A stretch of 64,000 nucleotides of DNA from Thermaerobacter sp. FW80 (GTDB lineage: Bacteria; Bacillota; Sulfobacillia; Thermaerobacterales; Thermaerobacteraceae), in contig NZ_CP037895.1 of assembly GCF_004634385.1 (NCBI RefSeq), positions 2,827,245-2,891,244 on the forward strand, read 5' to 3'. Below the pieces are notes generated by a model. The model was not told where the DNA came from, did not search any database, and saw only the letters and a program-made list of their open reading frames with translations. A program made the translations under genes and the position numbers. Within the stretch, counting starts at the first letter, position 1, and every line of letters starts with the position of its first letter. Positions 25,242 through 62,562 of the stretch are shown in pieces.

Positions 25242-26237
25242 ATGGCATCGGGCGAGATGGCCGCCAGCCAGGAGCCTGGGGCACCGCCGGAGCGCATCGA
25301 CGCCCTCTGGCTCGTGATGCAGCGCTTGGACGACATCAGGCGCGACCAAGAGAGGCTTTACGGCCACGTGGACTTCCTCCACCGGGGGCTTGCCGACGTA
25401 CGCCGGGAGCTCGGCGACGTGCGGCACGAGATCGCGGCCGTCCGCCAGGCGATCGGCGACGCGCAGCAGGCGATGCACCAGGAGATCGCCGGCGTGCGGC
25501 AAGCGATGCACCAGGAGGTCGCCGGCGTGCGGCAAGCGATGCACCAGGAAGTCGCCGGCGTGCGGCAGGAGATGCGGCAGGAGTTCGCCGCCGTCCGCCA
25601 GGACATCGCCGCCGTGCGCCAGGAGACCGCTGACGTGCGGCAGACGATGCACCAGGAGGTCGCCGCCGTCCGCCAGGAAATCGCCGCCGTGCGCCAGGAG
25701 ACCGCTGACGTGCGGCAGACGATGCACCAGGAGGTCGCCGCCGTCCGCCAGGAGATCGCCGACCTGCAGCAGGCGGTGCACCAAGAGATCGCCGGCGTGC
25801 AGCAGGCGATGCACCAGGAAGTCGCCGGCGTGCGGCAGGAGATGCGGCAGGAGTTCGCCGCCGTCCGCCAGGACATCGCCGCCGTGCACCAGGAGACCGC
25901 TGATGTGCGGCAGACGATGCACCAGGAGATCGCGGCCGTCCGCCAAGCGATCGGCGACGCGCAGCAGGCGATGCACCAGGAGATCGCGGGCGTGCAGCAG
26001 GCGATGCACCAGGCGATTGCCGGTGCCCGCCAGGAGATGCGCCAGGAGATGGCGGCCCTGCGCCAGGAGATGCGCCAGGAGATCACGGCCGTACGCCGGG
26101 AGGTCGGCGATGTCCAGCATGCCATCGCGGATCTGCGCCGCGACGTCGATCAGAGGATCACACGCCTGACCGGATGGCTGATCGGGGGCCTCGTCACCAT
26201 TCTGGGGACGGTCGTGGGCCTCCGGTTCCTCGGCTGA
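25242..26237 (+). CDS. Tail-anchored heptad-repeat coiled-coil protein
   Basis: 331 residues. About residues 30-300 are a continuous coiled coil built of 7-residue units such as IAAVRQE, VAGVRQE and TMHQEVA; the DNA shows matching 21-, 42- and 84-base near-repeats. The C-terminus, LTGWLIGGLVTILGTVVGLRFLG-like, is one membrane helix with almost nothing after it, giving a tail anchor. No enzymatic motif. The ATG at 25242 is preferred over the open frame upstream because the promoter lies inside that upstream stretch. It resembles DUF1640-type and apolipoprotein-like repeat proteins only in composition. Possible roles are membrane scaffold or spacer; function unknown. It ends 3 bases before the convergent hydrolase gene. 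Confidence 0.85.
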   Translation: MASGEMAASQEPGAPPERIDALWLVMQRLDDIRRDQERLYGHVDFLHRGLADVRRELGDVRHEIAAVRQAIGDAQQAMHQEIAGVRQAMHQEVAGVRQAMHQEVAGVRQEMRQEFAAVRQDIAAVRQETADVRQTMHQEVAAVRQEIAAVRQETADVRQTMHQEVAAVRQEIADLQQAVHQEIAGVQQAMHQEVAGVRQEMRQEFAAVRQDIAAVHQETADVRQTMHQEIAAVRQAIGDAQQAMHQEIAGVQQAMHQAIAGARQEMRQEMAALRQEMRQEITAVRREVGDVQHAIADLRRDVDQRITRLTGWLIGGLVTILGTVVGLRFLG

Positions 26238-33397: not shown

Positions 33398-33757
33398 CGG
33401 ATCGATCCCACCTTCGCAGGGCCCCCGCAGCGACAGGGCCCGACGTGGCGGCTCCCGTCGACGACGGCAGCCGATCCACCACCACACGGGCCCTTCGCCT
33501 TCGGCGGCCGGGTTCCTCCCCGGGGACGACCCGTGCCGTGCTGGGCGGCCGGAGCCCTCTCCGCCGTCCGACCGCCCCCCTCCGGTCCCGCGCCGGCCCC
33601 GCCGCAACGCGAGGCGCGGCTGCGGCCGGGGTGCGGCAAAGCAACGGGCCGGGGGAACGCCGCCGCTCTGCCCCCTTGCGACTGGCTCGTGGCAGAATGG
33701 CGCATGGCAAAGGGTCCGCCGCCGGCTCGCCGGCCCGCCTCGCCGCGCTCGGCGCAC

Positions 33758-33794
33758 GGCAAAGGGCCGGGGGCCTCGCCCCCGGCCCTTTGCC
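33758..33794 (-). terminator. 16-bp perfect hairpin after the Gln-rich gene
   Basis: Arms 33758-33773 and 33779-33794 are exact complements around a 5-base loop, 30 bases past the stop of the leftward Gln-rich gene and before lipA. No T-tract beyond the internal CCTTTGCC. Probably the 3' end of that transcript. The rest of 33398-33757 is low-complexity with no gene seen. Confidence 0.55.
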
Positions 33795-33823
33795 GCCGTT
33801 CGTCGGCGCCACCGCGCCGCCAC

Positions 33824-35038
33824 TCAGCCGCGGTAGGCGCCGCCCGTCTGCTCGTTGGCCGTCGCCGACTGCCACCGGGCGGAATAGTTCTCCTGGGGGT
33901 CGTAGCTCTGGGCCGTGGCACCGTACTGGGCGTGGCTCGCCGACCCCCCCTGGCCCTGGGACGAACCGGCCGGGCCCGCCTGGCTCGTGGCCTGCCCGTA
34001 CGCGCCCAGCTGAGCCTGGGACGCGTACTGGCCATAGGGCCCCGCCTGCCCGTAGCCCTGGGCCTGCTGGGCCATCCCGCCGGCGCTGGCCTGGACCCCG
34101 GACTGCCAGCGGGCGCTGTAGTTCTCCGCCGGGTCGTAGCTCTGGGCGGTGGCCCCGTACTGGGCGTGGCCGCTCGGACCGCCTCCCCCGTACGCCCCCG
34201 CCTGGCCCGGGCCCTGGGCCTGGCTCTGGAACGACCCGTACGGAGCCCCTCCGGCCTGCCCGTACGCCCCGCCGTACGGTGCGTACTGGCCAGCCTGGCT
34301 CTGGAACGAGCCGTACGCTCCCGCTTGACCCGCCTGCTGCCCCGCCTGGCCGGCGTACTGACCGGCCTGGCTCGTGGCCTGCCCGTACGCGCCCAGCTGG
34401 CCCTGGGACGCGTACTGGCCGTATGGCCCCGCCTGCCCGTAGCCCTGGGCCTGCTGGGCCATCCCGCCGGCGCTGGCCTGGGCCCCGGACTGCCAGCGGG
34501 CGCTGTAGTTCTCCGCCGGGTCGTAGCTCTGGGCGGTGGCCCCGTACTGGGCGTGGCTGCTCGGACCGCCTGCCCCGTACGCTCCCGCCTGGCCCGGGCC
34601 CTGGGCCTGGCTCTGGAACGACCCGTACGGAGCCCCTCCGGCCTGCCCGTACGCCCCGCCGTACGGTGCGTACTGGCCAGCCTGGCTCTGGAACGAGCCG
34701 TACGCTCCCGCCTGACCCGCTTGCTGCCCCGCCTGGCCGGCATACGGGACGGCCTGACCGGCCTGGGCCTGGTATTGGCCGGCGGCTCCATACGGTGCCG
34801 CCTGTCCGTACGACCCCGCCGTGCCGTACTGCGCGGCCCCGTACTGCCCGGCCTGGCTCTGGAGGGCACCGGGCTGCCCCGCCTGGGACTGCACCTGGCC
34901 ATACGCCTGGTTGCCCAAGCCGTGGCCGCCGGCGGGCGACTGCCACTGCGACGTGTACTGCTGCCGCGGGTTGTACGACTCGGGTGTCGCGCCATACTGG
35001 GCGTGGCTCGGGCCACCCGCCGCGTTGGCCTCGTCCAT
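33824..35038 (-). CDS. Gln/Gly/Ala/Tyr-rich low-complexity repeat protein
   Basis: 404 residues made almost wholly of Gln, Gly, Ala, Ser, Tyr and Pro. Short units such as YGQAG, SQAGQY and GAYGQ dominate, much like the SYGQ-rich prion-like domains of FUS-type proteins. A 24-residue module starting HAQYGATAQSYDP and ending YSARWQS occurs four times: once near each end and twice in the middle. It is the only part with charged residues and Trp. No signal peptide, membrane segment or Cys. ATG 35038 follows AGGGGGGGAT. Could be a spore coat or surface-layer component or a phase-separating protein; family not recognised. Two near-identical 387-base units make up the middle. Confidence 0.8.
   Translation of the reverse strand: MDEANAAGGPSHAQYGATPESYNPRQQYTSQWQSPAGGHGLGNQAYGQVQSQAGQPGALQSQAGQYGAAQYGTAGSYGQAAPYGAAGQYQAQAGQAVPYAGQAGQQAGQAGAYGSFQSQAGQYAPYGGAYGQAGGAPYGSFQSQAQGPGQAGAYGAGGPSSHAQYGATAQSYDPAENYSARWQSGAQASAGGMAQQAQGYGQAGPYGQYASQGQLGAYGQATSQAGQYAGQAGQQAGQAGAYGSFQSQAGQYAPYGGAYGQAGGAPYGSFQSQAQGPGQAGAYGGGGPSGHAQYGATAQSYDPAENYSARWQSGVQASAGGMAQQAQGYGQAGPYGQYASQAQLGAYGQATSQAGPAGSSQGQGGSASHAQYGATAQSYDPQENYSARWQSATANEQTGGAYRG
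33978..34742. repeat. 387-bp tandem duplication inside the Gln-rich gene
   Basis: Segments starting at 33978 and 34365 are nearly identical for about 378 bases; for example TGGCTCGTGG at 33981 and 34368, and CTGCTGGGCCATCCCGCC at 34064 and 34451, both 387 apart. 387 is 129 codons, so the frame is kept. The few differences suggest a recent or homogenised duplication. Confidence 0.85.
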
Positions 35039-35581
35039 GATCGATCCCCCCTGACCGCGTCTTCCAGGGGATAGATTGCGGAGCCGTCTCGCTGCTATAC
35101 CTTCCAGTTCACGGCAGGGCCCGGCCCCGCCTGCACGGCAAGCACGCGGTCCTGCCTGCAGAGTCCTGTACACGGCAAGGGTCCGGCCCCGTCTGCACGG
35201 CAAGCACCCGGCGCCAGCTCCTGCGGCCCAGTCCTGGTGCTCCGGCAGCGCGACCCCAGCGCGTTCCGCCACCCGCCCGCTCCCTGCCCACCCGCCAGGC
35301 CTGCCCGCCGGTCCCCACCCTGGGCGTGCGGCGCGTGGCACCCGCGCGGGATGGTCATCGGGTCTCCGGGACGACGGTCCCGGCCGCACCATACGATGTC
35401 CCAGGCCCGGTCGCACCATCTCCGCGCCATCGCTCCGGGCCGGCCCGGACCCGTCGCTGGGCCCGACGCCGCCGGTCCGCAGGACGGGTCACGGTCCGCG
35501 CTAGCAATCCACAGGGCAGGCGGCTGCGAGGCAGGCAGCCCAGGAGCGGAAGGCGCCAGAGGTTCGAGGGAGGGACGCGAC
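35039..35581. other. Intergenic region with a two-copy 40-bp repeat
   Basis: 540 bases between the leftward Gln-rich gene and DUF1805. The segment CACGGCA-GGG-CCGGCCCCG-CTGCACGGCAAGCAC occurs at 35110-35148 and again at 35171-35210. It lies 70-170 bases upstream of the Gln-rich gene start, so it may be a control region. No coding frame on either strand looks real. GAGGGAGGG at the right end is the DUF1805 ribosome site. Confidence 0.45.
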
Positions 35582-58557: not shown

Positions 58558-59358
58558 GTGGGGCGGGACGCCGAGCCGCGGGCGATCCAACCGGATGGGG
58601 TGGAGCGACTCGGAGACGCGGATGGGCGCCGGGCAACCGGCCGACCCGGGCCAGCGGGGCGGTGCCAGGGGACGAACCCGGCCCCTCCCCCGCCGGCAGA
58701 ACCGGAGTCGCATCCGACCGGACGACGAGCCCCGCACCCGGCCGCCGGCGTCACCGCGGACCTAGCCGGCGGCTCCGGCGCGGGACCGGCCGGGGACTGC
58801 GGCGCGGACCCACCCGCGGGCTCCGGCGCGGGACCGGCCGGGGGCCGTGGCACGGGTCCGGTCGCGGGTTCCACCGCGGGTCCGGTCACGGGCCCCGACA
58901 CGGATTCGGCCGTGGGCCCCCACGCGGGCCCGGCCGCAGCCTCCGGCGCGGACCCGGTGGCGGGTTCCCGCGCGGCCGCGGCTCCAGACGCCGCTATGAC
59001 GGTTCGCCGGGCGGCCGAGGCTGGAACCGGCGGCAGCCCCGGGCTCCTCCTCGCCGCCGTGGCCTTCGGCGCCCTCCTCAATCCCCTGAACTCCTCCATG
59101 ATCGCCGTGGCCCTCCCCGCCATCGCCCGGGACTTCCAGGTCCCCCTCGGCCGGCTGACGTGGGTGATCGCCGCCTTCTATCTGGCCAGCGCCGTCGGCC
59201 AGCCGGTGATGGGCAAGGTGGCCGACTTGGCCGGCCGCCGGCGGGTCTTCTTCGCCGGGCTCGCGCTGGTGGCCCTCGCCTCGGCCGCAGCGCCCCTGGC
59301 GCCGACCCTGGGCGCGCTGGTGGCGGCGCGGGTGCTGCAGGCGCTGGGAAGCTCGACC
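58558..59358 (+). pseudogene. MFS exporter, N-terminal fragment (interrupted)
   Basis: N-terminal part of a DHA2/EmrB-like drug exporter: about 145 residues of Gly/Pro/Ala-rich sequence (start GTG 58558, or ATG 58996), then three membrane helices with LNPLNSSMIAVALPAIARDF, WVIAAFYLASAVGQPVMGKVADLAGRRRVF and AARVLQALGSST. At Thr (ACC, 59356-59358) the match to MFS proteins ends and transposon sequence begins; the frame runs on 13 residues to 59397. The rest of the gene resumes at 61159 in the same phase. Confidence 0.9.
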
Positions 59359-61158: not shown

Positions 61159-62562
61159 CTCTACCCGGCGGGGATGGCCGCCGTCCGCGACGCCTTCACC
61201 GGCCGGACGGGGCAGGCCCTGGGCATCCTGGCGGTGTTCGCCTCCACCTCGGCCGCCCTGGGGCCCTCCCTGGGCGGGTTCCTGGTGCAGGCGGGCGGTT
61301 GGCAGGCGCTGTTCTACGTGAACTTCGTCCCCGTGGCGCTGAGCGCGGGACTGGCGCTGCGGGCCTTCCCGGCCGATGCCGGGGCGGCCGGTTCGTCCGG
61401 CGCGGCATCGCCTCGACCAGCACGGGTGGGTTCGTCCGGGGCCGGGGCGGCGTCGCCTCGGCCGGCGCGGGTGGGTTCGCCCGGGGCCGGGGCGGCGTCG
61501 CCTCGGCCGGCGCGGGCCCGTTCGTCCGGGGCAGTGCCGTCTGGGCCGGCGCGGGTGGGCCCGTCCGCCGCGTCCGCGAGCCCCGGGCGGTCGGCACTGG
61601 TCGACGGTCCCAGCGGGTCCTCGCCATCCGCGGGCCCGGGGCGGGGCCAGCGATCTGCGGCTCCGATGGAGCGGGCCGGAGGCCTGGGGGAGCTCGGCCG
61701 GCGGCTCGACGGGCTCGGCGTGGTCCTCTTCGCCGGAACCGTCACCTTCGGGCTGGCGGCCCTCCTCTCCCTGTCGGAACCGCAGCCGGCCTGGTGGGCG
61801 ATGGCGGTGGCCGTCGGCCTGGGCGTGGCCCTGGCCCGGTGGGAGGGCCGGGTCCGCGCCGCCGGCCGGGAGCCGTTCCTGGATCTGGGGCTGCTACGGC
61901 GGGACCGCGCCCGCACCGCCGTCTACGGCGCCTGGATCCTCTCGAACCTGGCCTTCTACACGGTGTTCTTCGGGATGCCGGCCTACTTTGAAGAGGTGCG
62001 CCACCTGGATCCCCGCACCAGCGGGCTCATGATGCTCTCGGTCGCCGGCTTCAGCAGCGTGGCGTCGCCGCTGGTGGGGCGGTGGGTCGACCGGGTGGGA
62101 CACCGGCCGGCCCTCTGGGCTGCCGGGCTCTCGTTGTCGACCGGCGCCTTGGCCCTGCTGGCCGTCGGTCCCCAGGCGCCCCTCGCCCTGCTCTTCGTCG
62201 TGCTGGCGTTCCTCGGCGCCAGCAACGGGGTGAACAATCTGGCGCTGCAGACCGCGCTGTACCGGTTCGTCCCGCGGGAGGAGACGGGGGCCGCCTCCGG
62301 CCTGTACATGACCTGTCGGTACATCGGCAGCATCCTCTCCAGCAGCCTGCTGGGGCTCATCCTGGCGGGGCCCCTGGACGGCCGCATGTTGCGCGAGCTG
62401 GCGCTCGGGCTACTGGTTCCGGCGGTGGGCCTGCTGGCGCTCATCCGGTGGATCCCGGCCTCCGGGGCCGGTCGCATAACTGGATCGCCGATCCCCGGTC
62501 CATCGGCATCCAGCGGGGTCCCGGCCTCCCGGGCCGGTCGCATACCCGCTCGCCGCCGGTGA
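61159..62562 (+). pseudogene. MFS exporter, C-terminal fragment (interrupted)
   Basis: Continuation of the exporter: LYPAGMAAVRDAF and TGRTGQALGILAVFASTSAALGPSLGGFL (motif C-like Gly/Pro helix), then about nine more helices, ending with a Gly/Ala/Ser tail. A low-complexity cytosolic loop of about 100 residues contains a 15-residue repeat (GSSGAGAASPRPARV). An ATG at 61174 could start a fragment, but it lacks the first helices. If the element is lost the full protein would be 588 to 734 residues depending on start. Confidence 0.9.
61391..61557. repeat. 45-bp minisatellite in the MFS loop
   Basis: Units start with GGTTCGTCCGG and end GGCGCGGGTG at 61391, 61429, 61474 and 61519; the middle two are 45 bases and almost identical, the outer two 38-39. 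All lengths keep the frame or nearly so. Each unit begins with the rc of the dispersed GGACGAACC word. Confidence 0.8.

Follow-up and report, generated by a model that had tools for sequence, protein, structure and literature searches.

The 404-residue low-complexity protein encoded on the minus strand at 33824-35038 of the window (the whole 64,000-nucleotide stretch analysed, positions 2,827,245-2,891,244 on the main contig of a genome of 3.04 Mb) probably belongs to the spore interior and is of a kind without earlier description, because the promoter of its gene resembles those activated inside the developing spore. The host forms spores and is probably heat-loving. A spore-core location is suggested by the forespore-type promoter, the lack of an obvious export signal, the predicted disorder and the bulk composition, and we give a rough probability of 0.48 to the overall reading of a forespore-made, disordered spore-core protein with a storage or protectant role. 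At the sequence level the conserved promoter, which was absent from the initial annotation, is the strongest clue to function.

A low-complexity protein with a repeated aromatic module

The frame runs from an ATG at 35038 to a stop codon ending at 33824, as initially annotated in both frame and length. Glycine (21.5%), alanine (21.3%), glutamine (19.1%), tyrosine (10.1%) and serine (9.2%) make up 81% of the protein, with 10 YGQ and 6 QYG units, bearing out the early description of a YGQ-rich, low-complexity sequence; lysine, isoleucine and cysteine are absent. Long overlapping ORFs in other frames of the locus were set aside as by-products of its 73% G+C content.

The protein carries four copies of a module, HAQYGAT...YSARWQS, starting at residues 12, 162, 291 and 369 (34937..35005, 34487..34555, 34100..34168 and 33866..33934, respectively, all on the minus strand). 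The number of copies had been recognised correctly, but the unit is 23 rather than 24 residues long, and near-identity is limited to the three copies at residues 162-184, 291-313 and 369-391. The N-terminal copy (residues 12-34, HAQYGATPESYNPRQQYTSQWQS) has diverged and retains 14/23 identical positions, and the last copy is followed by a conserved C-terminus, ATANEQTGGAYRG. Two of the four modules belong to a 387-bp tandem duplication within the gene (33978..34756, minus strand; two copies, 96% identity). The module had been thought to be the sole carrier of tryptophan and charge: this holds for all four tryptophans and for 11 of the 15 charged residues, but the other four (D2, E3, E396 and R403) lie at the termini.

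Neither a signal peptide at the N-terminus, inspected by eye, nor a membrane or surface anchor in the sequence was obvious. The disorder prediction proposed in the initial annotation was run with AlphaFold, giving a mean pLDDT of 39.9 and no secondary structure; the five input rows being of low complexity, this is weak evidence for disorder.

Conservation and distribution

Orthologues were recovered in four other genomes, three from the same genus and one from a different genus of the same family (MAG ZC4RG37). They are 257-360 residues long with three or four modules, and preserve the open frame, their modules and the C-terminal end, while the spacers between modules drift in sequence and length. 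Across 15 modules Y-G-A-T, S-Y and W-Q are invariant, within a consensus of H-x-x-YGATA-x-SY-x-P-x3-YS-x2-WQS. For between-genome pairs of modules, the mean dN of 0.21 against a mean dS of 1.50 corresponds to a dN/dS of about 0.14, and the C-terminal 36 codons show the same pattern. Since the orthologues in four genomes keep the frame and the modules have a dN/dS of this order, the frame is almost certainly a translated gene rather than a chance one; the purifying selection acting on it answers the earlier reservation that it might not be translated.

In 398 genomes drawn from across the phylum, a module profile found no credible relatives outside the genus; a scan of genome contigs matched MAG ZC4RG37 alone. 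One match to the profile, in genome G075, was rejected as spurious because it lies antisense to a murB-like gene. A search for positional homologues gave no similar protein beside DUF1805 genes elsewhere in the class. Within the reach of these searches, the protein is confined to one bacterial family.

A forespore-type promoter

Alignment of the upstream regions of the five genomes revealed a single conserved block, AACTGGAAGGTATAGCAGC...CCGCAATCTA...CTGGAAA, followed by the ribosome-binding site AGGGGGG (35046..35052, minus strand), likewise conserved in all five; the flanks diverge. The block contains the sigma-G-like promoter GTATA-N17-CAATCTA (35072..35100, minus strand), which ends 33 bp from the start codon. 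The sigma-G consensus of B. subtilis is said to have been given by Wang et al. in 2006 as GHATR-N17/18-CATNHTA; the site fits it at 10 of 11 defined positions, the sole departure being one position of the -10 element (CAATCTA against CATNHTA). Within 300 bp upstream, the best sigma-G match has 1/11 mismatches, compared with 3/11 for sigma-F, 4/10 for sigma-K, 4/13 for sigma-H, 6/12 for sigma-A and 7/15 for sigma-E, so that readings of the promoter as sigma-A, -E, -F, -H or -K were rejected as poorer fits than sigma-G.

Each of the five genomes has a single occurrence of the pattern GTATA-N17/18-CAWNYTA, invariably before this gene, and the reversed control occurs 0 or 1 times per genome. With training restricted to three site families of the same genus, a matrix ranked the promoter 11th of 255,840 window positions; a second matrix, which ranked it first, was discarded because it contained a variant identical to the -35 GTATA and was thus not independent. 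Total counts of the looser pattern GYRTR-N17/18-CAWNYTA were not enriched over the reversed control, and for this pattern only conserved groups of sites carry weight. There are six such groups, located at two alpha/beta-type ssp genes (ssp A and ssp B), the present gene, a membrane-protein gene, a GerA-family gene (PF03323, 3e-46; site conserved in two close genomes only) and a csfG-like locus.

Comparison promoters were found at known spore genes. The spoVA operon is preceded by GCATA-N18-AAGGCTA, and the -10 element therefore appears to vary in the genus. A sigma-E-like promoter, ACATATC...CATATACAT, precedes spoIVA, so the forespore and mother-cell classes of promoter are distinguishable in these genomes. 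Each genome has four alpha/beta-type ssp genes, and the GPR protease is present in the four same-genus genomes. Judged from the promoter, use of sigma-G and a forespore location of the product are likely, which bears out the link to sporulation suggested initially.

Gene neighbourhood

A strong terminator-like hairpin, with no clear U run, follows the stop codon (33756..33796, minus strand) and recurs at this position in each of the five genomes, its stems differing partly in sequence between lineages; the gene is thus probably a monocistronic unit. Downstream on the same strand lies lipA, identified by profile in the window and by motif in the four other genomes; lipB follows it in the window (profile search), and lpd is nearby. 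Within the genus, a divergently oriented DUF1805 gene lies upstream. In B. subtilis, lipA presumably adjoins the sporulation genes lytH and yunB, followed by the DUF1805 gene yunC.

Other repeats were noted in the window. A long array of diverged repeats (25445-26092; periods of 21, 33, 54, 75 and 195 bp) possibly encodes a repetitive coiled-coil-like protein, and further G+C-rich tandem arrays lie at 58755-58975 and 61397-61567 (24/48-bp and 45-bp units).

Comparison with known families

Scans of the whole protein and of single modules against Pfam and NCBIfam gave no match over cut-off, in keeping with the initial failure to recognise a family, and none to a coat or exosporium family, the kind of match that would have spoken against the initial view of the protein. 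A PDB search with the module found no match, and the literature searched contained no report on glutamine-rich proteins of Thermaerobacter. The module scores 21.2 bits against PF21930, a beta-helical trimerization domain with a cut-off of 27, in three of the five orthologues; the match spans only about 24 of 75 positions (E 0.13 for a single module), and membership was rejected as a chance match below the curated cut-off.

The protein shares its genomes and the class of its promoter with the alpha/beta-type SASPs, but these are short DNA-binding proteins, whereas the present one is long, predicted to be disordered and unrelated in sequence. It has no match to PF00269, the genome's PF00269 matches lying elsewhere, and no likeness by eye was seen between the module and the GPR site of the local alpha/beta SASPs. 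A different resemblance is to the SYGQ domains of the eukaryotic FET proteins: the protein is rich in Tyr, Gln, Gly and Ser with YGQ units, nearly uncharged and disordered by prediction. This likeness is one of composition only, and the bacterial protein adds a conserved, Trp-bearing 23-residue module.

Proposed role in the spore core

We propose that, once the forespore is engulfed, the gene is transcribed there from GTATA-N17-CAATCTA by sigma-G RNA polymerase, and that the product, intrinsically disordered, nearly uncharged, free of Lys, Cys and Ile and without an obvious export signal, would accumulate in the spore core. It would most likely serve there as a mass protein, as SspE is presumed to do in Bacilli, holding a reserve of Gln, Gly, Ala, Tyr and Ser that would be released at germination; alternatively or additionally, it could protect the dry core or act as its hydrophilic filler. 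Given forespore expression, a storage or protective role has a slightly better than even chance. The conserved aromatic module would be the selected element, whether as a protease site, a self-association sticker or a ligand site, with spacers free to vary. Because the module is under selection, something beyond storage, for example protease targeting or self-association, may also have been selected; against a plain reserve, the conserved Trp/Tyr modules exceed what mere storage needs.

The nearest functional analogue would be the gamma-type SASP SspE (PF04259), a hypothesised amino-acid reservoir (PMC8452069), although the two are not homologous. Both are Gln-rich, repeated, low-complexity proteins of spore formers with a sigma-G-type promoter and a presumed spore-core location. 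Unlike SspE, the present protein has no TEFASE-type GPR site, is several times longer, is rich in Tyr, Gly and Ala, contains Trp and lacks Lys; it is found in a single deep Bacillota family and not in Bacilli, whereas SspE is reported in Bacilli but not in clostridial genomes (PMC3533761, PMC8452069). If the proposal is true, it would suggest that spores repeatedly invent bulk disordered core proteins, here one unrelated in sequence from a deep Bacillota family, and the protein would offer a clean test case for distinguishing feeding at germination, protection of the dry core and condensate formation.

Alternative readings

A sigma-G-made forespore protein might instead form a condensate or matrix, its Tyr/Gln-rich spacers and aromatic modules, the latter as stickers, phase-separating or gelling the core, so as to shield DNA or proteins from heat and desiccation, not to feed germination. 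An SYGQ-like spore-core matrix protein would then have arisen independently in a deep Bacillota lineage. Phase separation would be compatible with the composition (SYGQ-like, 10% Tyr, only 15 charged residues in 404) and with the predicted disorder, and selection keeps the aromatic module while the spacers drift. Composition by itself is, however, no demonstration of condensation, and sticker strength alters at high temperature; we regard this reading as doubtful but not negligible.

Low-complexity proteins rich in Tyr, Gly and Gln are common in spore coats, and the initial annotation had considered a spore or cell-surface component. Such a coat, crust or exosporium protein would be a mother-cell product or an exported one, with tyrosines or glutamines as its cross-linking residues. 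In C. difficile the spore surface contains some sigma-G products (PMC3789822). In the present case the evidence speaks against a location in the coat or at the surface: the promoter is forespore-like, no mother-cell-type promoter was found within 300 bp upstream (best sigma-E and sigma-K matches mismatched at 7/15 and 4/10, against the clear sigma-E-like promoter at spoIVA) and no signal peptide is obvious. The protein also matches no coat family and has neither Cys nor Lys, and we consider this reading unlikely.

The adjoining lipA and lipB and the nearby lpd are housekeeping genes, a setting that would suit a vegetative low-complexity protein of the cytoplasm or surface, such as a stress protein or an adhesive, with no part in sporulation. 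The gene nevertheless has its own conserved promoter-like block and hairpin and lacks a sigma-A-like promoter (best 6/12 mismatched), and neither a signal peptide nor an anchor is obvious in its product, which makes this reading quite unlikely.

A divergent, true gamma-type SASP homologous to SspE shares the broad plan of repeats, Gln richness and a forespore-like promoter, and SspE itself has little homology among bacteria (PMC3003637), but this reading is disfavoured and highly improbable, as hmmscan at E up to 10 found no PF04259 match in the protein and a search of its genome at the same E found none either, the four modules and the whole protein aligned with the SspE repeat printed in PMC3003637 at shuffle-level local scores, the SspE-type repeat QFGTEFASETNAQQVR with its GPR cleavage site was not found in the protein, the lengths of 404 residues here and 257-360 in the orthologues compare with under 100 for SASPs (PMC8452069), and SspE is reported absent from clostridial genomes (PMC3533761).

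Further forespore-type loci

Several other loci emerged from the promoter comparison. The spoVA operon is headed in all four same-genus genomes by a dodecin-like gene, which immediately precedes spoVAC (L110-L113). The csfG-like locus carries a sigma-G-like site, GCATA-N18-CATATTA (G000:C1:2022567-2022596, minus strand; L067, L059), that is conserved in three genomes and adjoins a strongly conserved stretch about 3-4 kb from gpr. This stretch matches the ylbH leader RF00516 on the opposite strand at 26 bits, below cut-off. csfG is transcribed from the strand opposite the ylbH leader (PMC3574147) under sigma-F/sigma-G control (PMC9147052), and by sequence the locus is probably the csfG forespore RNA of this lineage. 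A further sigma-G-like site, GCATA-N17-CATACTA (G000:C1:2087042, plus strand; L072, with orthologues L063, L069, L075 and L071), is conserved in all five genomes; the gene behind it encodes a membrane protein beginning MRGFWLGFxCGLLVA..., which has no Pfam or NCBIfam match and is a candidate new forespore gene.
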